NCBI RefSeq assembly: GCF_007845675.1
Contig: NZ_VOBR01000021.1
Coordinates: 62,001-126,000 of the forward strand
Length of the DNA: 64,000 nucleotides
Source of the DNA: Lentzea tibetensis
GTDB taxonomy: Bacteria > Actinomycetota > Actinomycetes > Mycobacteriales > Pseudonocardiaceae
Reading direction: 5' to 3'
Position 1 is the stretch's first letter. Each line of letters begins with the position of its first letter. A program made the position numbers and the translations under genes. Shown piece by piece: positions 10,014 through 63,292 of the stretch. The notes below the pieces were generated by a model. The model did not search any database, was not told where the DNA came from, and was given only the letters and a program-made list of their open reading frames with translations.

Positions 10014-10082
10014 AACAAGAGCTTGCCCGCGCAACCGCCACACCCGCATCGGTAGTACTACGTGCTCTGACAAACTCACGCC

Positions 10083-10688: not shown

Positions 10689-10704
10689 ATCCTCGTCACA
10701 TTTC

Positions 10705-10716
10705 CCCTGATCAGGG
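10705..10716. promoter_or_regulatory. 12-bp palindrome CCCTGATCAGGG after maf
   Basis: Perfect palindrome between maf and the symporter, flanked by TTTC and AAGG so that it extends imperfectly. With no loop it fits an operator better than a hairpin. It could control the symporter, which starts 150 bp downstream. Its core TGATCAGG also occurs in two hairpins elsewhere in the window. Confidence 0.35.
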
Positions 10717-10866
10717 AAGGTCTCGTCGTTGCTCGGGTGTTGAGCCTGGCGATGAACGAGTTGCTGACGCGTCGCCGTCACATCGACCTGGGTCGCAGGA
10801 CGACCGCGGGCTGTACGGGCTGAACCGCCCCCAGCCCTCGTTCGCTCATCCCCTGCAGGAGATCCT

Positions 10867-12159
10867 GTGTCGCTCGTCAGCACCTACCGCAAGCCGAAGG
10901 TATTCGGCACCGCCGTCCTCGCCGCCCTCGTACTGGGCGCACTCGCCGGCTGGCTCGGCAAGAACACCTGGGTCGCGTCCGCGCTCGACCGCATCGGTGA
11001 CGTCTTCACCAGCCTGTTGCAGCTCACCGTCATCCCGCTCGTCTTCACCGCGATCATCGTCGGCATCACGTCGCTGCGCGGCCTCGGTGGCGGGCGCACC
11101 GCCGCCCGGCTCGGCGGGAAGACCTTCCTCTGGTTCGGGATCACGTCCTTCATCGCCGTGCTCATCGGGCTCGCGATCGCGTTGATCTTCAAGCCTGGGC
11201 TCGGAGTGCAGGTGACGCCCAGCCAGGCCGCGGTCGACAAGCTCGCCGCTCGTGCTTCCGGGTCGTGGAGCGGACTTCTGGACAGCCTGATCCCGTCCAA
11301 CCTGTTCGCCGCCTTCACCGAGGGCGAGGTGCTGCAGGTCGTGTTCATCGCCGTGCTGGTCGGGTTCGCCGCCTACGCTCTGGGTGAGAAGGCCGCGCCG
11401 TTCGTCGCGTTGAACCAGTCGGTGTTCGACCTGGTGCAGAAGGTCGTCGGGTGGATCATCCTGCTGGCGCCGCTCGGTGTGTTCGGGTTGATCGGCAACG
11501 CCTTCGCCACCTACGGCAACGCGTTCGTGCGACCGCTGTTCTCGTTGATCGCCGCGGTGTACGGCGGGACGTTGCTCGTGTTGTTCGTCGTGTACCCGTT
11601 GCTGCTCAAGTTCGTCGGGCGTGTCAGTCCCGTTGAGTTCTTCCGCAAGGCTTGGAACGCCATCCAGTTCGCGTTCGTGTCTCGGTCCTCCGGCGCTACG
11701 TTGCCGTTGAGCCGTCAGGCTGCTGTGGACCTCGGGGTGCCTTCCAACTACGCGTCGTTCGCCGTGCCGTTGGGGACTACGACCAAGATGGACGGTTGCG
11801 CTGCCGTTTACCCCGCTATTGCGACTGTCTTCATCGCCAACCTGTTCGGGGTTCAGCTCGGGGTTTGGCAGTACGTGGGGATTGTGGCTGTCGCGGTGTT
11901 CGGGGCTCTTGCCACTGCCGGGACCACCGGGTGGTTCACCATGCTCACGCTGACGTTGAGTGTGGTTGGGTTGCCGCCTCAGGTGATCGCCACCGGTGTT
12001 GCTGTCGTGTACGCGATCGACCCGATCTTGGACATGATCCGGACTGCTACCAACGTCGCCGGGCAGATCACCGTGCCGGTGCTGGTGGCGCGGAGCGAAG
12101 GTCTGATCTCCGACGGTGCCCCTGAGGACGCGCCGGTGGCCGTCCCCGTGGCTGCCTGA
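10867..12159 (+). CDS. Dicarboxylate/amino acid:cation symporter (DAACS family)
   Basis: Sodium- or proton-coupled importer of acidic amino acids or C4-dicarboxylates, GltP/DctA-like. It has 430 residues, multiple hydrophobic helices, the SRSSGATLPLS re-entrant serine-rich motif and the TTTKMDG and NLFG segments that build the substrate and cation sites. The GTG start at 10867 follows AGGAG at 10858. No operon partners are close; the palindrome upstream may be its operator. It is accessory relative to the accA3/maf/accE order. Confidence 0.92.
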   Translation: MSLVSTYRKPKVFGTAVLAALVLGALAGWLGKNTWVASALDRIGDVFTSLLQLTVIPLVFTAIIVGITSLRGLGGGRTAARLGGKTFLWFGITSFIAVLIGLAIALIFKPGLGVQVTPSQAAVDKLAARASGSWSGLLDSLIPSNLFAAFTEGEVLQVVFIAVLVGFAAYALGEKAAPFVALNQSVFDLVQKVVGWIILLAPLGVFGLIGNAFATYGNAFVRPLFSLIAAVYGGTLLVLFVVYPLLLKFVGRVSPVEFFRKAWNAIQFAFVSRSSGATLPLSRQAAVDLGVPSNYASFAVPLGTTTKMDGCAAVYPAIATVFIANLFGVQLGVWQYVGIVAVAVFGALATAGTTGWFTMLTLTLSVVGLPPQVIATGVAVVYAIDPILDMIRTATNVAGQITVPVLVARSEGLISDGAPEDAPVAVPVAA

Positions 12160-12203
12160 CCTCCTGGTGCGGGGTGGTTGGGGCTCCCGCCCCTTGCCCC
12201 CGG

Positions 12204-12220
12204 CCGGGGCTCCGCCCCGG
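12204..12220. terminator. GC-rich hairpin after the symporter
   Basis: CCGGGGC-TCC-GCCCCGG forms a 7-bp stem. It lies in a 12187-12227 stretch made of related GGGGCTCC/GCCCC blocks, a repeat style common between genes in actinomycetes. It probably ends the symporter transcript. A second small hairpin (GCGCC-TTC-GGCGC) follows near 12280. Confidence 0.5.
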
Positions 12221-12330
12221 ACCCCGGCACCACCGGAGGCCTGTGCTTGCTTTTCGTAGATGGTTGCTTGGTGGTTTGTGCGCCTTCGGCGCTCTGGGTT
12301 CTTCTCGTGTGACATGGCACGATCACGCAC

Positions 12331-12774
12331 GTGACCAGCACACCTGCCGAGGCGCAGCGTCTGCGTGACCTCGCCCTGCTGCGCCGGGTCCGCGACCGGA
12401 TGGATCGGGAGTACGCGCAGCCGCTGGATGTCGAGGCGCTCGCACGTGGCGTGAACATGTCGGCGGGTCACCTCAGCCGCCAGTTCAAGCTGGCTTACGG
12501 AGAGTCGCCGTACAGCTACCTGATGACGCGGCGCATCGAGCGTGCGATGGCGCTGTTGCGTCGTGGCGACCTGAGTGTCACCGAGGTCTGCTTCGCGGTC
12601 GGCTGCCAGTCGCTGGGTACTTTCAGCACGCGCTTCACCGAGCTCGTCGGCATGCCGCCCAGTGCCTACCGGCAGGAGGCGGCGCTGGAGACCGAGGGCA
12701 TGGCGCCGTGCGTCGCCAAGCAGGTCACCAGACCGGTCAGGAATCAAGAAGCGCGGGCTTCGACCCCGACTTAG
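12331..12774 (+). CDS. AraC-family transcriptional regulator
   Basis: 147 residues, essentially one AraC/XylS DNA-binding domain with two helix-turn-helix units: the first around ALARGVNMSAGHLSRQFKLAYG (about 39-60), the second around VTEVCFAVGCQSLGTFSTRFTELVGMPPSAYR (about 84-114). There is no ligand-binding domain. GTG start at 12331. The VOC gene starts 10 bp downstream and UvrA2 follows, so it is likely the local regulator of that operon. Confidence 0.9.
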   Translation: MTSTPAEAQRLRDLALLRRVRDRMDREYAQPLDVEALARGVNMSAGHLSRQFKLAYGESPYSYLMTRRIERAMALLRRGDLSVTEVCFAVGCQSLGTFSTRFTELVGMPPSAYRQEAALETEGMAPCVAKQVTRPVRNQEARASTPT

Positions 12775-21742: not shown

Positions 21743-24241
21743 ATGGGGATCGAGCTGCCCGCCGAGCTCGCGGACGTCGCGTCTCGGGCAGGCGTCCAGT
21801 GGCCTCAGGCCGACGAGGACGCCATGCGCGCCAGTGCCACCGCCTGGCGGGACACCGGCGACAAGATCAAGACGCTGAGCACCGACACCGACGGTTCCGC
21901 GGGCCGCGCGATGGAGTCGATGAAGGGCGCGACCGGCGACGCCGCGCGCGGCCACTGGGCGAAGATGGTCGCCCCGGACGGGCAGTTCAACCAGGCGGCC
22001 CGCGGTTGCCACGCCGCCGCCGACCGCCTCGACCACGCCGCGCAGCAGGTGGGTCAGGCCAAGGTCGAGATCGTGCGCGAGCTGGTCACGCTCGCCAAGA
22101 ACAACGACGCCGCCAACCAGGCCGCGTCCGCCGGGCACCCGACCGCCCTGCTCGGGCTGGACACCGCGGTGCGCGGCACGGCGGCCAACGTCGCCAACCT
22201 CTCCAACACGCTGTCCTCCGCCGTCCGGCTGGACAGCGGTGTCGACATGGGCCAGGCGTCGCCGCCCGTCAACACCAGCCCCGGCGCGCACGGTCCCGGC
22301 GGTGGCTCGCCCGGCGGCCTGCTCGCCCCGGTGGCTCAGGTGGTCGCGCCCGTGACGCAGGTAGTGGCGCCCGTCGTCGCTCCGGTGACGGACACCGTCG
22401 CTCCCGTGGTGGCCCCGGTCGCCGACGCCGTGCGCCCGGTGGCCCAGGTCGCCGCGCCGGTCGTCGCCCCGGTGGCCGATGCCGTGCCTGGCGTGCACCC
22501 GGTGGTGGACCCGGTCGTCGGCAAGCCCGACCACGCACCCGGTGCGGACGGTCGCGGCCCGGACAGCGCGCCGGGCAGGGACCAGGGCGGCATCGTGCCG
22601 CAGGTCGTGGACAAGCTCGGTGCCGCCGTCCAGCCGGTGGTGGACGCGGTTCCCGGCGTCGGTGACGGCCCGTCCCGCGGCCACGGCGACACGAACATCC
22701 TGCCGTCGGTCGTCGACCGCCTCGGCGACGCCGGGCCGGTGGGCGACGCTGTTCCCGGCGTGGGCGAGGGACGGCAGAGCCTGTCCGGCACCCTGATCCC
22801 GCCGGTCGCGGAGGGCACGACCGCGGCATCGGCCGCGGCACTGCTCGACCGCCCGCTGCTCACCCCCGAGGCCGCTCCCGCGGCGGGCCCGCAGGCTCCG
22901 GCGGCCGCCACGCCGCAGGCCCCGGCCGCCCAGGGCGGTCCCGGTCTCAACGCTCCTTCGCTCGGCAACGCCCCCACCATGGGTGGCCCCGCGGCGGCCC
23001 CGGCTGCTGCGGCTGGTGCTGTCGGCGGTGTGGTCGGCCAGGCCCAGGGCTCTGCCGCGCAGGCGGGTCAGGCCGCTCAGCAGGCGACCGGCCGTGCGGC
23101 CGACGCCGCCGCCAAGACCGCCGACCAGGCCAAGCAGGCGGTGCCCGGCACGGGTTCCGGCGGGCCGAGTTCCGGCACGCCTGGGGCCAAGACGGACGCC
23201 AAGGCCGCGGCGGCCGGCGCCCACGTCGACGCCAAGCTCGGTGACGGCCAGCCCGGTGCGGGCAAGGGCGCGGTCGTTGATGCCAAGGGCGCGGTGGCCC
23301 ACGCGGCCGCCGGGATCGACGGCTCGGGTGGCAAGACCGATGCCAAGGGCGTCGGTGCGAACGCAGCTGCCCAGGGTTCCGCCGTGACCGACCCGAAGGT
23401 GGATCCGAAGGCCGACCCCAAGGCGGACCTCAAGGCCGATGGCGCGGGAGCGCACCGTTCCACCGCCGAGTTCGGCGTGGTCGCCCAGGACCTGGGCGCC
23501 GCGTCCCCGCTCTCGCACCTGATCCCCACGGACCACGAGCGCCAGGAGGCGATCGCCGCCGCACTGGGCAACCCGGTCCAGCAGGTCCAGTCGGCCAGCG
23601 CGCTGGGCACGTGGTTCCTGGCACTGGTGTATCCGCTCGGCCAGGTCCCGAAGCTCAGCAGGAGGCCGGTCCGCCAGCTCCCGCCCCCGCCGGAGGAGGT
23701 GGACTTCGCGGCGGGCCAGCGCTTCGCACCGCAGGACCACCCGGAGTCCGGCCTGGTGGACACGTCGTTCGCCGACCGTCCTGAGCAGACCGAGGGCCTC
23801 GCGCAGGAGCACCCGGCGGTCCAGGCGCTGCTCGACGGCTACGACCCGCTCGGCGGCGCGCACGAGCACGACTGGGAGCGCAGGTTCCTGGTCCGCGCGG
23901 AGCCGGTGGAGTACGCGTGGCCGCCTGCCGAGCTGTTCCCCGAGGGCGGGTACGAGGAGGGCAGGCCCGAGGTGCTCGACGAGGGCGCCGTGCTCGACCG
24001 GTTCGGGTCCGCCGAGGGCCGGGTGCTGTCGCAGGCGGGCACGCCGTTCGCGCAGCGGAGCCTGCCGCCGCACGCGCTGGACGAGGGCTACCACCAGTAC
24101 AAGGTGTTGCGCGCGCTCCCGGTGTGGCGCACGGTCAGTGCACCCTGGTTCGGTCAGCCGGGCGGTGGCGCGCGCTACCGCACCACGTACCCCGTCGCGG
24201 ACCTCGTCGCGCTCGGCTACCTCATGGAGATCACCGCATGA
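21743..24241 (+). CDS. ESX-exported polymorphic toxin with C-terminal TNT domain
   Basis: 832 residues. The N-terminal about 170 are helical and WXG/PPE-like (SGRAMESMKGATGDAARGHWAKMV). A long Pro/Ala/Val/Gly linker with APV-type repeats follows (about 195-560). The C-terminal about 100 residues match the TNT (tuberculosis necrotizing toxin) pattern: WPPAELFPEGG, LDRFGSAEGRVLSQAGTPFAQRSLPP, then YKVLRALPVWRT and PWFGQPGGGARY. TNT of CpnT hydrolyses NAD+. The gene is followed by a coupled immunity gene (ATGA). This is a toxin for competitors or hosts, exported through ESX. Confidence 0.88.
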   Translation: MGIELPAELADVASRAGVQWPQADEDAMRASATAWRDTGDKIKTLSTDTDGSAGRAMESMKGATGDAARGHWAKMVAPDGQFNQAARGCHAAADRLDHAAQQVGQAKVEIVRELVTLAKNNDAANQAASAGHPTALLGLDTAVRGTAANVANLSNTLSSAVRLDSGVDMGQASPPVNTSPGAHGPGGGSPGGLLAPVAQVVAPVTQVVAPVVAPVTDTVAPVVAPVADAVRPVAQVAAPVVAPVADAVPGVHPVVDPVVGKPDHAPGADGRGPDSAPGRDQGGIVPQVVDKLGAAVQPVVDAVPGVGDGPSRGHGDTNILPSVVDRLGDAGPVGDAVPGVGEGRQSLSGTLIPPVAEGTTAASAAALLDRPLLTPEAAPAAGPQAPAAATPQAPAAQGGPGLNAPSLGNAPTMGGPAAAPAAAAGAVGGVVGQAQGSAAQAGQAAQQATGRAADAAAKTADQAKQAVPGTGSGGPSSGTPGAKTDAKAAAAGAHVDAKLGDGQPGAGKGAVVDAKGAVAHAAAGIDGSGGKTDAKGVGANAAAQGSAVTDPKVDPKADPKADLKADGAGAHRSTAEFGVVAQDLGAASPLSHLIPTDHERQEAIAAALGNPVQQVQSASALGTWFLALVYPLGQVPKLSRRPVRQLPPPPEEVDFAAGQRFAPQDHPESGLVDTSFADRPEQTEGLAQEHPAVQALLDGYDPLGGAHEHDWERRFLVRAEPVEYAWPPAELFPEGGYEEGRPEVLDEGAVLDRFGSAEGRVLSQAGTPFAQRSLPPHALDEGYHQYKVLRALPVWRTVSAPWFGQPGGGARYRTTYPVADLVALGYLMEITA

Positions 24242-24504
24242 ACCTCGAAGAGCTCACCGGCTGGCTGGACCGGATCGGCGTCCCCGAGAACGTCGTGTCC
24301 ATCGGTGCCGAGGCGGACAACAGCTGGTGCGTCCTGACCGACGACGAGGGCTACGAGGTGTTCTGGCGCGAGCAGGGCAACCGGTACGACTGGGCCCGGT
24401 TCACCAGCGAGTACGTGGCGTGCCACTACCTCTTCGGGCGACTCGCCTGGGCCCAGGTCGCACGGGGCGCCCTGAGCGTCCAGGAGGTCACGCCTCAGCC
24501 CTGA
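24238..24504 (+). CDS. Putative TNT immunity protein (IFT-like)
   Basis: 88 residues, starting at an ATG that overlaps the toxin stop (ATGA). It has NLEELTGWLDRIGVPENVVSIG and then WCVLTDDEGYEVFWREQGNRYDWARFTSE, acidic and Trp/Tyr-rich. Position and size fit the cognate cytosolic inhibitor of the NAD-glycohydrolase, as IFT is for CpnT. It ends 4 bp from the converging phosphatase. Confidence 0.82.
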   Translation: MNLEELTGWLDRIGVPENVVSIGAEADNSWCVLTDDEGYEVFWREQGNRYDWARFTSEYVACHYLFGRLAWAQVARGALSVQEVTPQP

Positions 24505-46590: not shown

Positions 46591-47004
46591 ATGGAACGGC
46601 TGAAGGACGTGACCGCGCTGATCGCCCGCATCGGGGTCGGGGTCGTCTTCATCGCGCACGGCTGGCAGAAGATCTCCGAGTGGGGACTCGATGGCACGGC
46701 CGCTTCGTTCGAGAAGATGGGCGTGCCGCTGCCCACGCTGTCGGCCTGGTTCGCGGCCGTCGTCGAGGTCGGTGGCGGGCTCGCGCTCGTCCTGGGCGTC
46801 GCGCTGCCGATCGCCGGTCTCCTGCTCGCCGTCGACATGGCCGGCGCGCTGGCGATCGTCCACCTGCCCAACGGGCTGCTCGGCCAGGGCGGCTACGAGC
46901 TCGTGCTGGTGCTGGGTGTGGCGGCGCTCGCGCTCGGGTTCAACGGTGGCGCGTACGCGCTCGACCGGGTGCTGTTCAGGAAGAAGTCCCCAGCTCGAGT
47001 GTGA
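46591..47004 (+). CDS. DoxX-family membrane protein
   Basis: 137 residues with four helices, LIARIGVGVVFIAHGWQKISEWG at the start and VVEVGGGLALVLGVALPIAG. DoxX members are small quinone-linked or redox membrane proteins, often involved in thiol stress. ATG at 46591 is preferred because GGGGAG is just upstream; ATG at 46576 is in frame but lacks a site. The 3' end overlaps the converging TIGR03089 gene by 29 bp. Confidence 0.88.
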   Translation: MERLKDVTALIARIGVGVVFIAHGWQKISEWGLDGTAASFEKMGVPLPTLSAWFAAVVEVGGGLALVLGVALPIAGLLLAVDMAGALAIVHLPNGLLGQGGYELVLVLGVAALALGFNGGAYALDRVLFRKKSPARV

Positions 47005-47668
47005 TCTTCTCGCTGTCCCGGCGCGCGGGCATCCGCTCCGCGTCGGGACTGCTCACCTGCACCAGCGTGCCGCCACCCGCCAGTACGGCCAGGAAACCGT
47101 CCAGCAGGCCGCCGGGCCACTCCACAGTGGACATCACGCGCGAGTCGAGACCGATTCCCAATGCGGCAGCACGGGTGCGGGCCGCAGCCACCAGTGAGTC
47201 CACATCGGACGAGTCGAGCGCGGGTGCCGAGCCGTCGAGAGCGGCCCACGGCGAGAAGTCGTCACCGTGCACCCGCACGTCGTCGTTGTAGTCGACCGGT
47301 GCGCCGGACCCCGCGCCCATCGGGTGCAGCGACGCCACGGCCACCACGTCCGCCGCGGCCGAACCACCAGGCGGCACAACGGCAACGGCCGCGGCGACAT
47401 CGGTGGTCACCACGTGCGCCCCGCACCACCACGCGCCCAGCAGGACGCCCACGGTCTGCCAGTGCGCGGGCAGCAGCACCGCGACGGGATCACCGGGCTG
47501 CACGTCGTGCTCGTCGCGCAACCAGTTCGCCGTCTTGGCCGCCCAGTTCCGCACGGTCGCGCGCGAGAGCTCGATCCGGGTGACAGCGGCGTCGTCGTAG
47601 TGGGTGATGAGCGGACGTCCGGGGTCCGCGGCGACCAGCGGTCCGAACAGGATCTCGGTCACGCTCAC
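46976..47668 (-). CDS. TIGR03089 family protein
   Basis: 230 residues. It resembles the N-terminal part of AMP-binding enzymes (RNWAAKTANWLRDEHDVQPGDPVAVLLPAHWQTVGVLLGAWWCGA) but has no phosphate loop or C-terminal domain, so it is not a ligase. This actinobacterial family of unknown function often lies beside LCP proteins and rmlD, as here. The GTG at 47668 follows AGGAG; the LCP stop is 10 bp away. Confidence 0.85.
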   Translation of the reverse strand: MSVTEILFGPLVAADPGRPLITHYDDAAVTRIELSRATVRNWAAKTANWLRDEHDVQPGDPVAVLLPAHWQTVGVLLGAWWCGAHVVTTDVAAAVAVVPPGGSAAADVVAVASLHPMGAGSGAPVDYNDDVRVHGDDFSPWAALDGSAPALDSSDVDSLVAAARTRAAALGIGLDSRVMSTVEWPGGLLDGFLAVLAGGGTLVQVSSPDAERMPARRDSEKITLELGTSS

Positions 47669-47678
47669 CACGGAACTC

Positions 47679-48848
47679 CTAGTCGACGCAGGGCACACCG
47701 GCCTGGGCGGCGGAGGGGAACGTGCCGTCCAGCTGCACCAGCTTGCCACCGCCGAACCGCGACGACGGGGTCGGGGCCGGTGAAGTCGCGCCGACCAGCT
47801 GCGCCACGAACGCCTTCACGGCCTCGCGGTCGACGGTCACCACCGACTGACCGCGTTCGTTGCGGAAGTCGATGTTCGTGACCGGGATCGTCGCGAACTC
47901 GACGTTGCCGGACGCCAGCGACTGCGCCTGCTGCGCCAGCGTCGCGATGTTCAGGTCCTCGTCGATCACGACGGACTTCGACACCGCGTCCAGCAGCCCG
48001 CTCATCTTCGACTGGTCGGTGAAGGTACCCGCGGACAGCAGCTGCTTCACCGCCGCCGACATGAACGCCTGCTGCCGCGCGATGCGGCCGAGGTCGCCGT
48101 TCGGCATGTTGCGCTGCCGCACGAACGACAGCGCGTCGGCGCCCTGCACCAGCTGCTCACCGGCGCGGAAGTTCGCGCCCGAGTTCGGGTCCGACGTCGC
48201 GGCCTTGAGGCACACCGGCACGCCGCCGATCACCTCGGTCAGCAGGTAGAAGCCGTACAGGTTGACCTCGGCGTAGTGGTCGACGCGCAGGCCCGTCAGC
48301 TCCTGGACGGCCTGCACCAGCGCCTTGCGGCCCGCCTCGTCCGACTTCTTCTCCCGCTCGGCCAGGTCCGAGACGCCCTCGGCCTGCAGGCGTTCCGCGG
48401 TCAGGAACTTCACCGCGCCGTACGCAGAGTTGATCTTGTCCTCGCGGAAGCCCGCGATCGGCACGTAGGTGTCGCGCGGGATGGAGATCGCGTTCGCCTT
48501 GCCGCCGTTGTGCGGGATGCGGATCAGGATGAGCGTGTCCGTGCTGACGCCGTCGGTCGCCTCGGTGCGCAACGCCTTCAGCACGTCGGCGGGCAGCAGC
48601 CTGCCCTGCGCGTCGTGCCTGCTGTCGCTGCCGACCAGCAGGATGTCCGTCGCACCGTCCTCTGCGGACGGTGAGTTCGGGATGTCCTCCAGCACGTTCA
48701 GGATGTTCGTCGTGTTGACGCTCTCCTGCACCCGCCGCAGCGTCGTCCAGCTGTAGCCGGAGACCGCGAGCGTGACGACCGCGAGCAGCGCGACGAACAC
48801 CCTGCTGGTGATCAGCAGAGCCTTCTTCGCACGTGCGGCAGCGCTCAA
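47679..48848 (-). CDS. LCP (LytR-CpsA-Psr) ligase, copy 1
   Basis: 389 residues. One TM near the N-terminus (about 15-36), then the LCP domain: DILLVGSDSRHD, TDTLILIRIPHNGGKANAISIPRDTYVPI with the phosphate-binding arginine, KINSAYGAVKF, and ALSFVRQRNMPNGDLGRIARQQAFM. It attaches arabinogalactan or teichoic-type polymers to peptidoglycan. I chose TTG at 48848, with GGAGGAA six bases upstream. No LytR_C domain is attached. TIGR03089 follows. Confidence 0.92.
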   Translation of the reverse strand: MSAAARAKKALLITSRVFVALLAVVTLAVSGYSWTTLRRVQESVNTTNILNVLEDIPNSPSAEDGATDILLVGSDSRHDAQGRLLPADVLKALRTEATDGVSTDTLILIRIPHNGGKANAISIPRDTYVPIAGFREDKINSAYGAVKFLTAERLQAEGVSDLAEREKKSDEAGRKALVQAVQELTGLRVDHYAEVNLYGFYLLTEVIGGVPVCLKAATSDPNSGANFRAGEQLVQGADALSFVRQRNMPNGDLGRIARQQAFMSAAVKQLLSAGTFTDQSKMSGLLDAVSKSVVIDEDLNIATLAQQAQSLASGNVEFATIPVTNIDFRNERGQSVVTVDREAVKAFVAQLVGATSPAPTPSSRFGGGKLVQLDGTFPSAAQAGVPCVD

Positions 48849-51588: not shown

Positions 51589-52410
51589 GTGATCCTCGTG
51601 CCAGGAGGTCGTGGCCAGCTCGGCCACGACCTCGCCGCGTTGTCGGACGACGTGCGCGCGCTGCCGTCGTCCGAGCTCGACATCACTGACGCCGCAGCGG
51701 TTTCCGCGGCTGTCCGCGGCGCCTCGGCGGTGATCAACTGCGCCGCCTACACGGCCGTCGACGCGGCGGAGACGGACGAGGACCGCGCGTTCGAGGTGAA
51801 CGCCGTCGGACCGGGCCTGCTCGCCGAGGCGTGCGCCGAGCGCGGAATCCCGCTCGTGCACGTGTCCACGGACTACGTGTTCCCCGGTGACGCGGACCGG
51901 CCGTACGAGCCGACCGACGCCACCGGCCCGCGCACCGCGTACGGGCGCACGAAGCTCGCGGGCGAGCAGCGGGTGCTCGCCGCGGGCGGCTGGGTCGCGC
52001 GCACCGCGTGGGTGTACGGCGTGTCCGGCAACAACTTCGTGCGCGCCATGCAGAACCTGGAGTCCACAAGGGACACTTTGTCCGTCGTGGACGACCAGCG
52101 CGGCTCGCCGACGTGGTCGGCCGACCTCGCCGCCGGGCTGCTGGAGCTGGTGCGGGTGCGGCCGGAGCAGCGGCTGCTGCACGCGACCGGCGGCGGCGAC
52201 ACGACGTGGTTCGGCTTCGCACGGGCCATCTTCGAGGAGCTGGGCGCCGACCCGGAGCGGGTGAAGCCCTGCACCACCGCGGACTTCCCGCGCCCGGCAC
52301 CGCGTCCCGCCTACTCGGTGCTGTCCGGGAAGTCGTGGGCGGATGCCGGGCTCACCCCGCTGCGGCACTGGCGCGAAGCGCTGGCCACCGCGTTCAAGAA
52401 CGGTTTCTAG
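51589..52410 (+). CDS. rmlD: dTDP-4-dehydrorhamnose reductase
   Basis: 273 residues, last step of dTDP-rhamnose synthesis. Rossmann start LVPGGRGQLGHDLA, VINCAAYTAVDAAETDEDRAFEVNAVGPGLLAEAC, HVSTDYVFPGDADRPYEP and TAYGRTKLAGEQ with the YxxxK pair. GTG start one base after the rmlB stop. The end overlaps the converging patatin gene by 4 bp. rmlC is not here. Confidence 0.95.
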   Translation: MILVPGGRGQLGHDLAALSDDVRALPSSELDITDAAAVSAAVRGASAVINCAAYTAVDAAETDEDRAFEVNAVGPGLLAEACAERGIPLVHVSTDYVFPGDADRPYEPTDATGPRTAYGRTKLAGEQRVLAAGGWVARTAWVYGVSGNNFVRAMQNLESTRDTLSVVDDQRGSPTWSADLAAGLLELVRVRPEQRLLHATGGGDTTWFGFARAIFEELGADPERVKPCTTADFPRPAPRPAYSVLSGKSWADAGLTPLRHWREALATAFKNGF

Positions 52411-53249
52411 CCCCAGAGCTCGGCAACCTGTGCGGCGACCGCGGAGGCCTGGCGATAGCCGGCCTCCGCGACCGCGGGCAGCAGCGCCGGGTCCATCGGG
52501 TTCGTGTTGACCGCCTCGACCGTCTCGTCGGCGAACACCGTCACGACGGAAGCGCCCGTCCGCGCGCGCAGTTCGCTCACCTGCTCCGGCACGTTGCCGA
52601 TCGGGCTGAAGCCCTCCGCCATCGGTGCCAGCACGAGGATTCGCTGACACTTCCCGGCCAGGTCCGCGTTCGCGGGCGAGCGGATGAACCCGTCGACCCA
52701 CCGCCTCCCGCCGACCTGCGCGGGCGGGTAGACGAACGGCAGCGCGCAGCTGGCGGTCACCGCGTCGGTGAGCGACACCCCGCTGTTCGCGTCGAACGCC
52801 ACGAACTCGCCGCTCTCCGCGTCGACGGCGGTGACGAGCAGCCGCTGCGCCGGCCAGTCCGAAAACGGGCACAACGCCAGAACTCCGGCTCTCAGCTCCT
52901 CTTCCGTCGCCAGGGGCGGCGTTTCCAATGCGGTGCGCCCCAAACGAGCTCGAGCGAGCTCCAGGTTCTTCCCGCTGCTGATCAACGCGCCGAGCTCGGC
53001 CATCGCCTGTGAAGTGAGCAATCTCGCAGGCCCTGGGTTGTTATTCGTGATTAGCTTCGCGAATATTTCTCGCGGATCGACGCCGGAAGCATGTTGGGCG
53101 CCGACTGCCGACCCGCAGGAAGTGCCGATCGTGAGATCGCTTCCACGCAGATCAATGCCTATTTCGGTGAGCGCGGCGAGCATGCCTACCAGCCATCCGA
53201 ACCCTGTCAGCCCGCCACCACCGAGTACGAGTGCCCGTTCATCCCTCAT
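52407..53249 (-). CDS. Patatin-like phospholipase
   Basis: 280 residues. Oxyanion loop ALVLGGGGLTGFGWL, nucleophile elbow GTSCGS (GxSxG), and the catalytic Asp in VDGFIRSPANADL give the Ser-Asp dyad of patatin lipases. No signal peptide. It is divergent from the lyase gene and is the first gene of the accessory island after rmlD. Confidence 0.9.
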   Translation of the reverse strand: MRDERALVLGGGGLTGFGWLVGMLAALTEIGIDLRGSDLTIGTSCGSAVGAQHASGVDPREIFAKLITNNNPGPARLLTSQAMAELGALISSGKNLELARARLGRTALETPPLATEEELRAGVLALCPFSDWPAQRLLVTAVDAESGEFVAFDANSGVSLTDAVTASCALPFVYPPAQVGGRRWVDGFIRSPANADLAGKCQRILVLAPMAEGFSPIGNVPEQVSELRARTGASVVTVFADETVEAVNTNPMDPALLPAVAEAGYRQASAVAAQVAELWG

Positions 53250-53356: not shown

Positions 53357-54958
53357 ATGGCATCAATTCTGCTCGGTTCTGATGAGCTCACGTCGTCCGC
53401 TGCCGCGTCGTTCGCGCGTCGCCCGGACGGAAGAGTCATCAGATTGGACGACGAGGCGGAGAAGCGCGTCGTCCGCTCCGTTCAGCTGATGCGCGACCTC
53501 ATCGCCACCGGACAGCCGATGTACGGCATCACCACGGGTTTCGGGGACAGCTGCGTCAGGCAGATCAGCCCGGACAAGGTCGTCGCGCTCCAGCGCAACC
53601 TGGTCCAGTACCACCTGAACGGGTTCGGCCCGATGGCCGAACCCGAGGTCGTGCGCGCGACCATGCTGATCCGCGCGAACTGCCTGTCCCGCGGGTACTC
53701 GGGCGTGCGTCCCGAGGTGATCAACCTGCTGGTCGACTGCCTGCACAACGACATCCTGCCGATGATCCCCGAGCGCGGGTCGGTCGGCGCGAGCGGCGAC
53801 CTGGTGCCGCTGTGCTATCTGGCCAACGCGCTGACCGGGGACGGCGAGGTGCTGTTCGACGGCTCGGTCGTCCCGGCGCGGCACGCGATGCGCGAGTGCG
53901 GGCTCGAACCGGTCGTGCTGGAGGCCAAGGAGGGCCTCGGCCTGATCAACGGCACGTCGTTCATGTCCGCGTTCGCGTCGCTGGCGCTCAGTGACGCGGC
54001 CGAGCTGGCCGCGGTCGCGGACGTCTGCACGGCGCTCGCGATGGAGGCGCTGCTCGGCAACCGCGGCCACTTCGAGTCGTTCATCCACGAGCAGAAGCCG
54101 CACCCCGGCCAGCTGCGCAGCGCCGCCACGATCCACGGCCTGCTCGACGGCTCCGAGCTGGCCCGCGAGTACTCGCAGGTGCTGTCCGCGAACAAGGCGC
54201 TGGGAGGCAACCGCTTCCAGGAGCTGGAGCACTCGATCCAGAACCGCTACTCGCTGCGCTGCGCACCGCACGTGACGGGCGTGCTGTACGACACCGTCGA
54301 GTGGGCGACCCGCTGGGTCGACGTGGAGATCAACTCCACGAACGACAACCCGCTGTTCGACATCGAGGCCGCCACGATCCGCAACGGCGGCAACTTCTAC
54401 GGCGGCCACGTCGTGCAGGCGATGGACTCGCTCAAGGTCGCGGTGGGCAGCGTCGGCGACCTGCTCGACCGCCAGCTCGCGCACCTCGTCGACGACAAGT
54501 TCAACATCGGCCTCACGCCGAACCTCATCCCGTTCACCGACGACGACGAAGAACTGGGCCTGCACCACGGGTTCAAGGGCACGCAGCTCGCCGCGTCCGC
54601 GCTGACCGCGGAGGCGCTGAAGCTCGGCATGCCCGCGACCGCGTTCTCCCGGTCGACCGAGGCGCACAACCAGGACAAGGTCAGCATGGGCACGATCGGC
54701 GCGCGCGACGCGCGAACCGTCGTCGAGCTGGTGCGCCAGGTCGCGGCGATCAACCTCGCCGCCACCTGTCAGGCCATCGACCTGCGCGGTGCCGACAAGC
54801 TCGGCCAGGGCACCCGCGCCGCGTACGACCTGGTCCGCGAGCACATCGCGTTCCTCGACCGGGATCGCAGGCTGGACGGCGATCTGTCCGCTCTCGTCGA
54901 GGTCATCAAGTCCGGTGCGTTCGGCGCCATCGCCGAGAAGTTCGGCGAGGACAGGTGA
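53357..54958 (+). CDS. MIO-type aromatic amino acid lyase or aminomutase
   Basis: 533 residues, HAL/PAL/TAL/TAM superfamily. The A-S-G triad (residues 145-147 in GSVGASGDL) forms the MIO cofactor; Tyr56 in YGITTGFGD is the catalytic lid tyrosine; ELEHSIQNRYSLRCAPHVTG and INSTNDNPLF are conserved. The C-terminal half has AHNQDKVSMG, the NQD form of PAL, TAL and aminomutases, while histidine lyases have QED. The selectivity site reads NLVQYHLNG, so Phe versus Tyr is open. It starts a coupled operon (GTGA with the next gene). Confidence 0.93.
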   Translation: MASILLGSDELTSSAAASFARRPDGRVIRLDDEAEKRVVRSVQLMRDLIATGQPMYGITTGFGDSCVRQISPDKVVALQRNLVQYHLNGFGPMAEPEVVRATMLIRANCLSRGYSGVRPEVINLLVDCLHNDILPMIPERGSVGASGDLVPLCYLANALTGDGEVLFDGSVVPARHAMRECGLEPVVLEAKEGLGLINGTSFMSAFASLALSDAAELAAVADVCTALAMEALLGNRGHFESFIHEQKPHPGQLRSAATIHGLLDGSELAREYSQVLSANKALGGNRFQELEHSIQNRYSLRCAPHVTGVLYDTVEWATRWVDVEINSTNDNPLFDIEAATIRNGGNFYGGHVVQAMDSLKVAVGSVGDLLDRQLAHLVDDKFNIGLTPNLIPFTDDDEELGLHHGFKGTQLAASALTAEALKLGMPATAFSRSTEAHNQDKVSMGTIGARDARTVVELVRQVAAINLAATCQAIDLRGADKLGQGTRAAYDLVREHIAFLDRDRRLDGDLSALVEVIKSGAFGAIAEKFGEDR

Positions 54959-55959
54959 GGACCGCGCTGGTCGGGGCACCCGGCAAACCGTTCGAGCTCG
55001 TCGAGGACGGGCCCGCCGAGGCGGGACTCGGCCAGGTGCTGGTCAAGGTCGACGCCTGCGGCATCTGCCACACCGACGCCATGTTCACCGCGGGGCTGTT
55101 CCCCGGAGCCAGGTTCCCGATGGTCGCCGGACACGAGGTCGCGGGCACCATCCAGCAGCTCGGGTCCGATGTGGACGGTTGGCGGACCGGTGACCGGGTC
55201 GGCGTCGGGTTCTGCGCCGGCTCGTGCGGGCGGTGCTCGCCGTGCCGCGCGGGCGACTTCGTCTTCTGCACCAGCCGCGCCATCACCGGCATCACGCACC
55301 GGGGCGGCTTCGCCGAGGGGCTCGTCGTGCCCGCGGGTGCGCTGTCGGCGATCCCGGACGAGATCTCCGCACCGGACGCCGCGCCGCTGATGTGCGCGGG
55401 CGTCACGACGTTCAACGCGCTGCGGCACAGCGACGCGTCCGGCGGTGACCTCATCGCGGTGCTCGGGCTCGGCGGGCTCGGCCACCTCGCGGTGCAGTTC
55501 GCCGCGAAGATGGGTTTCGACACGGTCGCGGTGTCGCGCGGCACGGACAAGCAGGAGCTCGCGCACCACTTGGGCGCCAGGCACTTCGTCGACAGCCGGA
55601 CGACCGACGTCGCCGGGGCGTTGCGCGATCTCGGTGGCGCCAGGGTGATCCTCTCCACGATCACGCACGCGCCCGCCGTGAGCGCGGCCGTCGGCGGTCT
55701 CGCGCCCCGCGGCGAGCTGATCGTCGCGGGTGCCTGCGCGGACGCGATCGGCGTCGACACCGGTGTGCTGATCGACCAGGGCAGGCGGATCTCCGGCTGC
55801 CTCGTCGGCACGCCGAAGGACATCGAGGACACCCTCGCGTTCTGCGCGCTCACCGGCATCCGGCCGATGGTCGAGACGGTGCCGTTGCAGGACATCGAAC
55901 GCGCGTTCAGCCGCATGCTGGACGGTTCCGCACGATTTCGGATGGTGGTGCTGCCATGA
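54955..55959 (+). CDS. Zinc-dependent alcohol dehydrogenase
   Basis: 334 residues, MDR family. Catalytic zinc: CGICHTD (Cys35) and GHEVAG (His60, Glu61). Structural zinc: Cys91, 94, 97 and 105. Rossmann GLGGLGHLAVQFA near 170. Related to cinnamyl alcohol dehydrogenase and AdhP types. GTG start overlaps the lyase stop. In context it may act on an aryl aldehyde or alcohol. Confidence 0.92.
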   Translation: MRTALVGAPGKPFELVEDGPAEAGLGQVLVKVDACGICHTDAMFTAGLFPGARFPMVAGHEVAGTIQQLGSDVDGWRTGDRVGVGFCAGSCGRCSPCRAGDFVFCTSRAITGITHRGGFAEGLVVPAGALSAIPDEISAPDAAPLMCAGVTTFNALRHSDASGGDLIAVLGLGGLGHLAVQFAAKMGFDTVAVSRGTDKQELAHHLGARHFVDSRTTDVAGALRDLGGARVILSTITHAPAVSAAVGGLAPRGELIVAGACADAIGVDTGVLIDQGRRISGCLVGTPKDIEDTLAFCALTGIRPMVETVPLQDIERAFSRMLDGSARFRMVVLP

Positions 55960-56015
55960 GGACCAACTGGCTGGTCGGTCACGTTCGCTGCTGCGGAGTG
56001 GAGGTCCGGCTATGA
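55956..56015 (+). CDS. Possible 19-residue coupled micro-ORF
   Basis: MRTNWLVGHVRCCGVEVRL. The ATG overlaps the dehydrogenase stop (ATGA) and its TGA overlaps the ligase ATG in the same way. It contains the GGAGTGGAGG ribosome site of the ligase. It may be a coupling peptide that carries ribosomes between the two genes; it may also be chance. Two cysteines side by side are unusual. Confidence 0.3.
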   Translation: MRTNWLVGHVRCCGVEVRL

Positions 56016-57328
56016 CATCGTGGGTCGACGACTTCCTGCTCGCCGGGCCGGACGACGAGGTGTGCTTGCAGCTCGGTGGGCCGGTGCGCCGTTCGGAGCT
56101 GCGAACGGCGGTCGCCGGTCGGCAGAACCTGTTGCGGGACATGGGTGTCGGGCCGGTCCACTCGGTCGCGATGCAGCAGCCCGCCTCGCTCGACCACGTG
56201 GCGACGGCGCTCGCGGTGTGGCGGCTCGGCGCGCAGCTCGTGACCGTCGACCACCGGGTCACCAGGGCCGGCTTCGACGACGTGCTCGCGGTGTTGCGGC
56301 CGAAGGCGGTTGTGACGGTCGAGCGGATCAGCCAGCGTCCGGTGTGGACACCCCGGACCGACCACGTGCTGGTGCAGGTGACCTCGGGCTCCACCGGTGC
56401 GCCCAAGCTGGTCGGCCGCACGTTCACCGACATCGTCGCCGAGGTGGTGAAGACCGGGCGGCTGCCCGGCATGCCGGGACGCGGGGAGAGCGCGGTCGTG
56501 CTGGCCGCGTTCGCGCACACCTACGGCCTGTTCGCCGGTCTGCTGCACGGGTTGCACTCCGGTGCGCGGGTCGTGGTGCCGGAACACCCGACGGCGCGCG
56601 GCATCGCGACGGCCGTCGCGGAGGCGAGCGGTCCGGCGACCGTGTTCGGCGTCCCGTTCCACCTGCGGCTGCTCGCGTCGCTCAACGCCGACATGCCCGG
56701 ACTGGCGCGCGTCGTGTCGTCCGGCGAGCGCATCGAACCGGTGCTGGGCGAGATGGTCGCGTCGCGGCTGAACGTGCCGGTCGGCCAGATCTACGGGATG
56801 ACCGAGACCGGCATGATCGCGGGCGACCTCGACGGCTCGTGCCGCCCCTCCGTCGGCAGGCTCGCGCCCGGTGTCGACGTGCGGACGCCGGACGGCGAAC
56901 TGCAGGTGCGCATGGACGCCTCGCCGTATCTGGGCTTCGCGGAGGCCGGCAGGTGGCAAGCGGGCTGGTTCCGCACCGGTGACGCCGCGTCGGCCGGACC
57001 GGGCGGGCTGCTCACGTTGCACGGCCGGATGGACGCTCAGGTCACCGTCGGCGGCCTGAAGGTGGACCTGACCTCCGTCGAGTCGATCCTCTCCGCGCTG
57101 CCCGGCGTCGCGGACGCGGTCGTCGTGAACGACGGCGTGCTCAAGGCGTTCGTGGTGCTGCGCGAAGGGGGAACCGTGGACACCGACGAGCTCGACCGCG
57201 TGCTGGCACCGCACCAGCGGCCGCGGGTCGTCCACACCGTGTCCGCGTTGCCGCGCACCCCGTCGGGGAAGGTCGTGCGCGCTCTCGACCAGTTGAACGC
57301 CGCCGTACTGGAGGGATCACTGACATGA
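56012..57328 (+). CDS. Free-standing AMP-forming acyl/aryl ligase
   Basis: 438 residues of the ANL superfamily, shorter than most (about 500). Core motifs: TSGSTGAPK (124-132), YGMTETG (261-267), FRTGD (320-324), GRMDAQVTVGGLKVD (338-352) and PSGK with the catalytic Lys420. It adenylates a carboxylate and loads it on a carrier, most simply the next gene product. Its stop overlaps the carrier start (ATGA). Confidence 0.9.
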   Translation: MTSWVDDFLLAGPDDEVCLQLGGPVRRSELRTAVAGRQNLLRDMGVGPVHSVAMQQPASLDHVATALAVWRLGAQLVTVDHRVTRAGFDDVLAVLRPKAVVTVERISQRPVWTPRTDHVLVQVTSGSTGAPKLVGRTFTDIVAEVVKTGRLPGMPGRGESAVVLAAFAHTYGLFAGLLHGLHSGARVVVPEHPTARGIATAVAEASGPATVFGVPFHLRLLASLNADMPGLARVVSSGERIEPVLGEMVASRLNVPVGQIYGMTETGMIAGDLDGSCRPSVGRLAPGVDVRTPDGELQVRMDASPYLGFAEAGRWQAGWFRTGDAASAGPGGLLTLHGRMDAQVTVGGLKVDLTSVESILSALPGVADAVVVNDGVLKAFVVLREGGTVDTDELDRVLAPHQRPRVVHTVSALPRTPSGKVVRALDQLNAAVLEGSLT

Positions 57329-57735
57329 ACATCGCCGAGTTCGTCGGAGTCGACGGCGACTTCGCCGCGCTCGACGCGCGGGCGCGGCTCGACCTCGCGC
57401 TGCGGGTCGAGCGGCAGTTCCGGATCCGGTTCTCCGACGAGGAGATCGAGTCGCTTCCCCGCCTGTCCTGGCAGAACTTCGTCGAGCTGACGAAGGCACT
57501 GCTGAAGAGGACGCGCGTCGCGAGGCCGCCGACCCGGCAGGACGTGCTCGCGGTGCTCGCCGAGGTGCGCGGCACCAGCGAGGTCATCGAGGAGATCGAG
57601 TCGATGGAACTGCTGTGGCTGCTCAACTCCATGGAGCAGCGGTACGGCGTGACGCTCGACATCGACGAGCAGAGCCTGACCCGGATGCGGACGGTCGACG
57701 GTGCCGTCGGAGTGCTGTGCTCGTGCGTGGGCTGA
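57325..57735 (+). CDS. Two-domain carrier protein, first domain lacking the Ppant serine
   Basis: 136 residues. Residues about 70-132 form an ACP/PCP-like domain with IESMELLWLLNSMEQRYGVTL, where Ser93 stands where the phosphopantetheine serine of the usual DSL belongs. Residues 1-62 look like a second ACP helix bundle (LDLALRVERQFRIRFSDEE, then WQNFVELTKALL), but the serine position is Ala-Arg. It probably holds the aryl or beta-amino acyl group made by the lyase and ligase. Confidence 0.68.
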   Translation: MNIAEFVGVDGDFAALDARARLDLALRVERQFRIRFSDEEIESLPRLSWQNFVELTKALLKRTRVARPPTRQDVLAVLAEVRGTSEVIEEIESMELLWLLNSMEQRYGVTLDIDEQSLTRMRTVDGAVGVLCSCVG

Positions 57736-58475
57736 CCGTCGCCGTCACCGGCGCGAACCGGGGACTGGGCCGTGCCATCGCGGAACGAGCGGCGGACGCG
57801 GGAGCGGACCTGCTCCTGCTCGGCCGCGACCTGGACGCGTTGCGCGGTGTGGCCGCGGCGACCGGCGGCGAGGTGCGGTACCTCGACCTTGCCGATCCCG
57901 CGACCATCGGGCCCGCGCTGAGCGGGCGCGTCGACGTGCTGGTCAACAACGGGGGCGTGACCGGCCCCATCGGCCCGAGCTGGGAGGTCGCCGACCGCGA
58001 CTGGTGGGAGGCGATGGAGGTCAACGTCCGCGGCACCGTCCAGGCCTGCCACGCCGTCCTGCCCGGCATGCTCGCCAGGCACTCCGGCCGGGTGATCAAC
58101 ATCGTCAGCAACGCGGGCAGGCTCACCTGGCCGTCGGTCAGCTCGTACTCCGTCTCGAAGGCGGCCGTCATCAAGTTCACCGAGAACGTCGCCGAGGAAC
58201 TGCGCAACCGCGGTGTCTCGGTGTTCAGCTTCCACCCCGGACTGCTCGACATCGGCATGGCGGGCGGGCACCTCAACGAACGCCGCTCCACCGACCCGTG
58301 GCGCAACCAGATCCGCATCTGGCTGCGCATGGAGCGCAAGGCGGGCCGGTTCACCCCGCTCAGCCAGGCGCTCGAGACGCTGCTCCTCCTGCTCGACGGC
58401 ACCGCGGACCCGCTGAGCGGCAGCTACCTGACCGCCGATGACGACATCGCCGCACTCGTGAAGGAGAAGTCATGA
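57723..58475 (+). CDS. SDR-family oxidoreductase
   Basis: 250 residues. TGANRGLG (9-16) is the NAD(P) loop; NNGG replaces NNAG; Ser129, Tyr142 and Lys146 are the catalytic residues. Like FabG-type ketoreductases, it could reduce a beta-keto thioester on the carrier. It overlaps the carrier gene by 13 bp; GTG at 57723 is used, with another at 57717. ATGA overlap with the next gene. Confidence 0.88.
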   Translation: MRGLTVAVTGANRGLGRAIAERAADAGADLLLLGRDLDALRGVAAATGGEVRYLDLADPATIGPALSGRVDVLVNNGGVTGPIGPSWEVADRDWWEAMEVNVRGTVQACHAVLPGMLARHSGRVINIVSNAGRLTWPSVSSYSVSKAAVIKFTENVAEELRNRGVSVFSFHPGLLDIGMAGGHLNERRSTDPWRNQIRIWLRMERKAGRFTPLSQALETLLLLLDGTADPLSGSYLTADDDIAALVKEKS

Positions 58476-59602
58476 CCTCGACGCTCGCCCCGGCCGAGCT
58501 CGTCACGCGTGCGCGGGAGATGCGTCCCCGGCTGCTCGACCGGCAGGCGCTGACGGACGAGCTGACCCGCGTGCCCGAGGAGACCCACCTGGACTGCCTC
58601 GACGCCGAGCTGTACCGCATGCTCTTACCCCGCTCGTTCGGCGGGCTGGAGACGAGCCTGCGCACGTTCGTCGAGGTCGTCATCGAGATCTCCCGCGGCT
58701 GCCCGTCGACCGGGTGGAACCTCGCGCTCGCCGCGGGCCACTCGCACACGATCGCCGCGCTGTTCCCGCTCTCGGCGCAGCGGGAGATCTTCGGGTCGGG
58801 CGACTTCCGCGCCGCGATGCCCGTCGCGCCGACGGGAACGGCGGTGAGATCCGGTGACGGCTACGTGGTCAACGGCCGGTGGGGCTACGCGTCCGGCGTG
58901 ATGGTGTCGACGCACGTGATCGCCGGCGTGCTGATCGACGGCGTGCCCGGCATCGCGTGCGTGCCCGAGTTCGAGGTGCTGGAGGACTGGGACCGCGCGC
59001 TCGGCATGCGCGGCAGCGGCTCCAACAGCGTGGTCGTGTCGGACGTGCACGTGCCAGCGGACTGGGTGCTGCCCGGTTTCGTGCTCGACTGGGAGGCCAC
59101 CGGCGAGGCCGTGCACGGCAACCCGATGTACGGCGGGCGGCTGATGACGTTCTTCCAGCTGGAGCTGACCCCGGTGGTCGTCGGGTGCGCGTTCGCCGCG
59201 CTGGACGAGTACCGGCGGATCGTGTCGTCGAAACGGCTCATCCAGCCGCCGCACCAGCCGCGCCGCGAGCACCCCGAGTACCAGCGGATCCTCGGTGTGG
59301 CAACGGGTCTGGCCGAGAGCGCGAGCCGCACCGTGCTGTCGGTGGCCGACGACTACCGCTCGGGCATGTCGCTGGCCGACGACTACCGGCTCGCGGTCGT
59401 GTGCAACCAGGCGGGCCAGTTGGCCGCGCAGGCGGTCGAGATGCTCGCCGCCGCGTCCGGGACCGCGTCCGTGCTGGCCGGGCAGCGGATGCAGCGCTAC
59501 CTGCGGGACGTGCAGATGTACCGGACGCACTCGAACGCCCAGGTCGGCAACTGGGCGGCGACGTTCGGCCGGCTGGACCTGGGCCTTCCCCTGTCCTTCT
59601 GA
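58472..59602 (+). CDS. Acyl-CoA dehydrogenase-fold flavin monooxygenase (HpaB C2/HsaA-like)
   Basis: 376 residues. PRSFGGLETSLRTFVEVVIEISRGCPSTGWNLALAAGHSH and the C-terminal YRTHSNAQVGNWAATFGRLDLG match group D two-component flavin hydroxylases, which use the acyl-CoA dehydrogenase fold but hydroxylate aromatic rings with reduced flavin. No catalytic Glu of dehydrogenases is in its usual place. It would need a separate flavin reductase, not found in this window. It is the last gene of the coupled operon. Confidence 0.82.
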   Translation: MTSTLAPAELVTRAREMRPRLLDRQALTDELTRVPEETHLDCLDAELYRMLLPRSFGGLETSLRTFVEVVIEISRGCPSTGWNLALAAGHSHTIAALFPLSAQREIFGSGDFRAAMPVAPTGTAVRSGDGYVVNGRWGYASGVMVSTHVIAGVLIDGVPGIACVPEFEVLEDWDRALGMRGSGSNSVVVSDVHVPADWVLPGFVLDWEATGEAVHGNPMYGGRLMTFFQLELTPVVVGCAFAALDEYRRIVSSKRLIQPPHQPRREHPEYQRILGVATGLAESASRTVLSVADDYRSGMSLADDYRLAVVCNQAGQLAAQAVEMLAAASGTASVLAGQRMQRYLRDVQMYRTHSNAQVGNWAATFGRLDLGLPLSF

Positions 59603-62818: not shown

Positions 62819-63292
62819 GTGAAGCGCTTCTTCATGGCGGCCGCGGCCGTCGCCGCGGTGTTCTCGATCGGCGCCGCCGCGCCGGCCGCGGCCGCACCGC
62901 ACAGCGAGGACAAGGTGCTCACCAGCACCGTCGCGGCGGACGACGTCAGCGCGATGGCCGTGTCGTGCTCGAACCTGTACTGGTGCATCTGGCGCGACCC
63001 GAACGCCACGAACAACAACTACCGGTACACCTGGTTCGGCTCGGACGGCAACTACGCCAACAACTACTGGTCCGGCGTGACCGTCAGCAACAAGGCGTCG
63101 GGCGTGTGGAACCAGGGCGACCGGCAGTTCGTGGTGATCTTCGACGGCCCGGACTACACCGGCAACTGGGCGTGCGTGCCCGCGAACACGCACATCCCGG
63201 ACCTGCGCAACGCGGCGACCGGTGACACGCCGGTCGGCTGGTGGAACGAGCGGATCTCGTCCCACAAGTGGAGCAACACCTGCACCAGGTAG
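62819..63292 (+). CDS. Secreted I36-type peptidase inhibitor-like protein
   Basis: 157 residues. Sec signal: KRFFMAAAAVAAVFSIGAAAPAAAA. The mature part has CSNLYWCIWRDPN, then YANNYWSGVTVSNKASGVWNQG and WACVPANTHIPDL, the small beta-crystallin-like I36 pattern with two disulfides (four cysteines). Such proteins inhibit metalloproteases or bind the surface. GTG at 62819 has GGGGGAG upstream. Divergent from the SARP gene. Confidence 0.85.
   Translation: MKRFFMAAAAVAAVFSIGAAAPAAAAPHSEDKVLTSTVAADDVSAMAVSCSNLYWCIWRDPNATNNNYRYTWFGSDGNYANNYWSGVTVSNKASGVWNQGDRQFVVIFDGPDYTGNWACVPANTHIPDLRNAATGDTPVGWWNERISSHKWSNTCTR

Follow-up and report, generated by a model that had tools for sequence, protein, structure and literature searches.

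We analyzed a window of 64,000 nucleotides of Lentzea tibetensis DNA (contig NZ_VOBR01000021.1, positions 62,001 to 126,000, forward strand), the subject being a six-gene cassette that sits on this contig of the 9.36 Mb genome. All six genes lie on the plus strand. They encode a BagA-like MIO ammonia-lyase, predicted to be a tyrosine ammonia-lyase (TAL; 53357–54958; NF041222; Lyase_aromatic PF00221, 557 bits); a Zn-dependent alcohol dehydrogenase of the medium-chain dehydrogenase/reductase (MDR) type (ADH; 54955–55959; ADH_N PF08240, 95 bits; ADH_zinc_N PF00107, 77 bits); an AvaA1/CmaA1-like aryl-acid:carrier ligase (LIG; 56012–57328; AMP-binding PF00501, 119 bits; AMP-binding_C PF13193, 41 bits); a two-domain carrier (CAR; 57325–57735) with an A2-type N-half and an A3-type C-half, identified by homology of the latter; a classical short-chain dehydrogenase/reductase (SDR; 57723–58475, with a GTG start at 57723 or 57717; adh_short PF00106, 138 bits); and the oxygenase component of a group D two-component flavin hydroxylase (HYD; 58472–59602; PF08028). 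A patatin-like hydrolase (PAT; 52407–53249, minus strand; PF01734) diverges from the operon, its gene starting 107 bases from the lyase gene. A first-pass annotation had reported six genes on one strand with stop/start overlaps at the main junctions. All six open reading frames (ORFs) are in place, five of them plainly assigned by Pfam, and four of the five junctions overlap, by 4 bases at MIO/ADH, LIG/CAR and SDR/HYD and by 13 or 19 bases at CAR/SDR, as set by the choice of SDR start; the exception is ADH/LIG, a 52-base gap. PAT and the two-domain make-up of CAR were absent from that annotation.

The reading we favor for the cassette, a real and uncommon unit, is a polyketide synthase (PKS) loading module of a known kind that works with a lyase and without a PKS. 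Specifically, we consider it probable that this is an inserted, PKS-free phenylpropanoid cassette built on a starter-loading module of the ava/cma type. The MIO enzyme, judged by family and context, would deaminate L-tyrosine to p-coumarate. The AvaA1-like ligase, whose homology and motifs are seen, would adenylate p-coumarate and load it onto Ser93 of the A3-type domain, next to an N-terminal domain whose sequence suggests the decayed remnant of a malonyl-carrying A2. HYD, with a reductase from elsewhere, would hydroxylate the ring beside the phenol to give a caffeoyl unit, before or after loading, while the SDR and ADH would carry out some side-chain or acceptor redox step. PAT, given its linkage, would release the unit as an acid or ester.

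The ligase and its two-domain carrier

LIG is 39–47% identical to ligases in 17 loci, 14 of which contain a ketosynthase (KS) gene, and 32–40% identical to ligases beside genes for 3-amino-4-hydroxybenzoic acid (AHBA) synthase in 11 loci. A tree built from 21 ligases groups those of the cassette type, from L. tibetensis, Lentzea sp. NBRC 105346 (G248) and a further genome of the family (G099), in one clade with 99/99 support; L044 and L115 sit on long branches. Amino-acid adenylation domains carry an Asp in region A4. The corresponding region of LIG reads FAHTYGLF in both L. tibetensis and NBRC 105346 and FAHAYGLF in G099; the missing Asp suggests that the ligase is not of the amino-acid adenylation type.

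A ligase adjoins the carrier in all 30 carrier-matching loci of the family search. We examined 13 non-cassette ligase-carrier loci at 20 kb (L042, L043 and L045–L055); gene calls in relatives' loci came from a custom script, and their start positions are approximate. Nine of them combine a KS pair with two carriers and a short ORF lying between, and also encode a second AMP-binding enzyme and enzymes resembling HPPD and PhyH. Three others (L043, L048 and L049) have a single A3-type carrier and an HPPD-like gene, with no KS among the called genes, and appear from their gene content to represent another PKS-free use of the ligase-carrier module; in the remaining one, L053, the ligase is in pieces. 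Five further loci (L201–L205) have a KS. Among ten loci found with an AHBA-synthase query, four (L243, L246, L251 and L252) have a ligase, a carrier, a KS and a short ORF in the position of the chain length factor (CLF), a label that rests on position because Pfam detects KS likeness in one of the three such ORFs tested; L252 matched by its A2-type carrier alone, three of the four have a second, diazotase-like AMP-binding enzyme, and the other six loci showed no carrier or KS match. The order in L246, I-H-ligase-A2-A3-KS, is that of cma/ava in Table 1 of PMC10777205. Clusters of the ava-like type II PKS kind with HPPD-like and PhyH-like genes were seen at L042, L045–L047, L050–L052, L054, L055, L201, L202 and L205; those tested gave no AHBA synthase match, and they perhaps use a tyrosine-derived starter.

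CAR scores 17.9 bits against PF00550, below the cut-off of 20.8. Despite this weak score its identity is settled, because the C-half is 43–54% identical to carriers beside related ligases. CAR is an A2-A3 fusion in which the C-half keeps Ser93 and Trp98 (Ser+5). When rows were aligned over the Ser site across the 28 loci searched, A2-type carriers had the Ser in 18 of 18 cases and Trp at Ser+5 in none, while A3-type carriers had both in 20 of 20, with His at Ser+8 in 13. In the fused carriers of L. tibetensis, NBRC 105346 and G099, Ser is missing from the aligned N-half site in all three and Ser and Trp are present in all three C-halves; in the first two, most of helix 1 is gone from the N-half. 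Selection differs between the halves: dN/dS against NBRC 105346, calculated per half by dividing the computed dN by dS, is ∼0.67 for the N-half, an estimate from 56 codons, and ∼0.28 for the C-half (69 codons). The carrier as a whole gives 0.52, compared with 0.20–0.39 for the five catalytic cassette genes (lyase 0.20, ADH 0.33, LIG 0.39, SDR 0.39, HYD 0.32). A structure model from a two-sequence alignment, a weak line of support, places helices in both halves, four of them in the C-half from residue 71. The missing Ser and the higher dN/dS suggest that the N-half is a decayed A2-type (malonyl) carrier domain, which would have become dispensable because KS and CLF are missing.

Across the 30 ligase-carrier loci, A2 and A3 share one frame in three (L. 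tibetensis, NBRC 105346 and G099) and are separate ORFs in 12. A fourth fusion, in an ava-like cluster of NBRC 105346 (L243, 9813–10274), keeps both Ser residues and is thus an intact equivalent of the decayed one, so the loss of the N-half Ser is not explained by fusion alone. In the ava pathway, AvaA1 loads 3,4-AHBA onto AvaA3 and does not recognize AvaA2, A2 is expected to carry malonyl, and the AvaA1-AvaA3 contact is predicted to involve a Trp and a His (PMC10777205).

The lyase and its predicted product

The lyase carries the ASG motif and a YHLNG loop. Among NCBIfam models it scores 728 bits with the BagA/FevW model NF041222, 444 and 457 bits with HutH, 389 bits with the tyrosine 2,3-aminomutase (TAM) model TIGR03832 and 382 bits with the phenylalanine ammonia-lyase (PAL) model. 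It misses the NF041222 cut-off of 1000, yet this is its best family by far; the lyase is related to that family and not filed in it. FevV/BagA deaminates tyrosine to trans-coumarate (PMC6692506); the NCBIfam model says FevW, whereas in that paper FevV is the TAL and FevW a synthetase. Tyr85-His86 is common to seven BagA-like lyases, where SgcC4 has Ser-His.

The contexts of related lyases point in the same direction. A relative with 56–57% identity (L088 in G245, 9072–12354) has a phenolic acid decarboxylase (PF05870, 238 bits) two genes away, the pair being a probable source of vinylphenol, and two others (L115, 61%; L249, 59%) accompany AHBA-type genes. L. tibetensis itself encodes a second BagA-like lyase, 73% identical, on contig C2 (L009, 6541–11408), with an O-methyltransferase and a MoaF-like protein (by Pfam) and two P450-like genes (read by eye) as neighbors; similar gene sets were seen at L180 (G099) and L129 (Saccharopolyspora spinosa). 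Because these contexts comprise phenolic acid decarboxylation, AHBA synthesis and O-methyltransferase/P450-like genes, p-coumarate fits as the product; judged by sequence it is likely, and beta-tyrosine is not likely. A HutH role for the cassette lyase was rejected, since the genome has another MIO copy, on contig C33 and 36–38% identical, that is the likelier HutH.

Insertion site, conservation and neighboring genes

In NBRC 105346 the same six genes occur in the same order with 65–86% identity; together with the low dN/dS, this indicates that the set is more than a chance assembly. The insertion site lies between rmlD and a glycosyltransferase gene, GTa; these two are adjacent in all seven cassette-free Lentzea loci inspected (from a set of 23 such genomes), with 270–290 bases between match ends in six and ∼770 in one. 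Seven genes, patatin through hydroxylase, lie between rmlD and GTa in NBRC 105346, and the L. tibetensis insertion has the same seven plus a SARP gene and a small gene resembling an I36 inhibitor. Since PAT is within the insertion in both genomes, it belongs to the inserted unit; none of the seven cassette-free loci shows a match to it where the insertion is lacking. PAT scores 63.9 bits against PF01734 (cut-off 27.7) and keeps the GTSCG and DG motifs. It is 65% identical to its counterpart in NBRC 105346 (dN/dS 0.19, a rough value because dS is high, 1.4) and 53% identical to the copy that neighbors the ligase and carrier genes in G099, compared with 41–46% for the best copy of each cassette-free Lentzea genome (23 genomes). 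PAT may release the product, as a thioesterase or acyltransferase.

The cassette is uncommon. Carrier matches were found in 30 of 391 family genomes and in two of 25 Lentzea genomes, those of L. tibetensis and NBRC 105346, and both carrier halves occurred in one stretch in a single genome (L. tibetensis) of an even sample of 394 genomes of the class. Of 589 confirmed matches in a MIO scan of genome contigs, the best 80 were retained, and one of these, in NBRC 105346 (L100), has the cassette.

Facing the cassette, as the first-pass annotation had it, is a SARP/AfsR-like regulator (59858 to ∼62635, start approximate; minus strand, convergent), a real gene with BTAD, NB-ARC and TPR regions. Because it lies in the L. 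tibetensis insertion without a match at the NBRC 105346 locus (L041), its place in the core unit is doubtful, and we rejected it as a core member. The adjoining I36-inhibitor-like protein (62819–63292, plus strand; 20.3 bits, cut-off 21.1) likewise has no match at that locus. We also rejected rmlB and rmlD as sugar genes of the pathway, both being present in all seven cassette-free loci; a match to rmlD of at least 74% occurs in 25 of 25 Lentzea genomes. Elsewhere in the window, the product of a plus-strand gene (21743–24241) has a WXG100-like region at its N-terminus and ends in a TNT-type domain, and we would guess that a small ORF at 24238–24504 is its partner. A minus-strand ORF at 46976–47749, beside two LytR-CpsA-Psr genes, matches a short part of the AMP-binding profile (12–78 of 384).

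Alternatives and comparison with known systems

Several observations weigh against a PKS-free phenylpropanoid cassette derived from a loading module. With respect to the enzymes, the lyase scores below the cut-off of the BagA model, and the highest PDB match by sequence (300 bits) is an entry that we take to be SgcC4, the C-1027 aminomutase. The nearest kin of HYD resemble enzymes for free phenols, no step can be assigned to the ADH and SDR, and no acceptor or exporter gene was identified. As for the carrier, CAR has Asn in place of the His of the predicted ligase-contact pair, and the N-half alignment is gapped near the Ser site; the Ser loss in NBRC 105346 is not certain, because a Ser lies three residues past the aligned site. 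The carrier model has a pLDDT (predicted local distance difference test) of 68.6, with 52–58 in the N-half and 74–91 in the C-half, and a fold search with it gave no match at E 0.001 (best 0.19), the listed matches being nearly all acyl carrier proteins. With respect to context, 15 of the 30 ligase-carrier loci lack any A2-type match and L043, L048 and L049 show KS-free loading modules elsewhere, so the absence of KS is not special to the cassette. Because A2-free ligase loci are this common, the cassette stands out by having kept a decayed A2 half and by having a lyase alongside. The G099 ligase-carrier cluster has no MIO match within ∼28–30 kb; a MIO gene with 59% identity lies on another contig. 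Likeness to the ava/cma parts was judged by gene order and relatives. Finally, CmaA1 also loads 3,4-AHBA (PMC10777205), and LIG could take another aryl acid.

A tentative variant, which overlaps the favored reading, concerns the order of steps: free p-coumarate would be hydroxylated first and caffeate then loaded, with the carrier serving for transfer only. HYD (53.7 bits with PF08028, Acyl-CoA_dh_2) is nearest HsaA and the p-hydroxyphenylacetate hydroxylase (HPAH) oxygenase in NCBIfam, and its PDB kin, HsaA, XiaF, Rv3094c and HPAH C2, place it among the group D oxygenases. Homologues occur in 55 of 391 family genomes at E 1e-50. The nearest non-cassette hydroxylase (52–55%; G243, L232) has a flavin reductase (PF01613, 125 bits) as its neighbor, and at both L232 and L234 the hydroxylases are amid genes that we read by eye as ring-cleavage genes, which favors this order; the family search confirmed the flavin reductase only. 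None of five further hydroxylase loci (L232–L236) holds the rest of the cassette. Nothing decisive counts against the variant; the one point on that side is the coupling of the HYD gene to the SDR and carrier genes. No flavin reductase is among the cassette genes; three PF01613 places lie on other contigs of the genome.

It is rather improbable that the hydroxycinnamoyl-carrier is a starter unit given in trans to a KS encoded elsewhere in the genome. Related loading modules do serve a KS in 14 of the 17 relative loci used in the ligase tree, and an ava-type KS query detects 30 KS-like places in the L. tibetensis genome. None of these is on the cassette's contig (C24; E 1e-10), however, and the best two are 39–40% identical to the ava-type KS, compared with 44–69% in ava-like loci. 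The malonyl-carrier half has decayed, and the genome has no second carrier of the CAR kind (E 1e-3).

Still less probable is a monolignol-like route to a hydroxycinnamyl aldehyde or alcohol, in which the charged acyl group would be reduced and a cinnamyl alcohol dehydrogenase (CAD)-like ADH would act on the aldehyde. The ADH start overlaps the lyase stop and CADs are among its PDB kin, but the CAD match (2cf5, 168 bits) ranks under bacterial ADHs (up to 220 bits); NCBIfam gives Ahr at 248 bits (cut-off 470), and by sequence the ADH belongs to the bacterial MDR enzymes and is related to CAD more distantly. Pfam detects neither a thioester reductase nor an acylating aldehyde dehydrogenase among the cassette genes, and classical SDRs are not known to reduce thioesters to aldehydes. 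A beta-tyrosine module as in C-1027 is very unlikely: the gene lists are similar and the SgcC4 match, with none higher in the PDB, is its strongest argument, but the lyase prefers the BagA model to TAM (cut-off 501, above its score), and the A4 region of the ligase lacks Asp.

Beyond the favored reading of a repurposed loading module, we offer a more speculative history: in a cma-like ancestor, a TAL would have replaced chain-building, the malonyl carrier would have become a structural pseudo-carrier, and the patatin would have taken on release or acyl transfer as its dedicated function, the product being a new caffeoyl ester or conjugate. If the favored reading is right, the cassette shows how the loading module of a polyketide pathway can be retained for a different task in the absence of the chain-building enzymes, and a single gene displays the decay. 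The cassette would then be a compact system, suited to expression, for bacterial phenylpropanoid chemistry on a carrier. It would also supply a concrete candidate for the release enzyme, where the cma paper has 'an unknown thioesterase' (PMC10777205).

Literature searches returned no described cluster with exactly this set, and no papers for acyl-ACP/PCP terms; the available part of PMC11429834 contains nothing on this gene set. The first-pass claim of novelty is thus uncontradicted for the whole set, while the ligase-carrier core is a relative of the ava/cma loading module (PMC10777205). The same annotation had found no PKS, nonribosomal peptide synthetase or thioesterase nearby. The first two absences stand, and the linked patatin-like hydrolase qualifies the third. 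Of its two proposed products, a carrier-bound aryl-acrylate would agree with our analysis, and a beta-aryl amino acid is disfavored by the lyase scores, the relatives' contexts and the A4 region. The C-1027 pathway makes its beta-tyrosine unit with SgcC4, SgcC1, SgcC2 and SgcC. The cassette shares with it a MIO enzyme, an adenylating enzyme, a carrier and a flavin hydroxylase, but its lyase is nearer TAL than aminomutase, its ligase is of the aryl-acid type, and it has no condensation enzyme. In the bagremycin and ferroverdin pathways, as in the cassette, a BagA-type lyase (BagA/FevV) feeds a phenolic pathway; those pathways decarboxylate coumarate to p-vinylphenol and couple it to AHBA (PMC6692506), whereas the cassette lyase is accompanied by a ligase and a carrier, and a decarboxylase was not found among the cassette genes.

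The closest comparisons are with the ava and cma clusters, for avenalumic acid and for p-coumaric acid in Kutzneria albida, which share the order A1-A2-A3 and a highly reducing type II PKS (PMC10777205). In the cassette there are no KS, CLF, diazotase or AHBA genes, the A2 domain is fused and has lost the Ser at its aligned site, coumarate would come from the lyase, and a hydroxylase, ADH, SDR and patatin are added. Common to both are an aryl-acid ligase, of AvaA1/CmaA1 type by its relatives and gene order, and an A3-type carrier with Ser and Trp; the cma product is itself p-coumaric acid. Within the same family, the G099 cluster (L044, 7627–19880) shares the patatin, the ligase, the fused carrier with its decayed N-half and the SDR (41% identical), while a P450, an O-methyltransferase, a PapA-like acyltransferase, an S15-type hydrolase and another Zn-ADH replace the MIO enzyme, the cassette ADH and the flavin hydroxylase.

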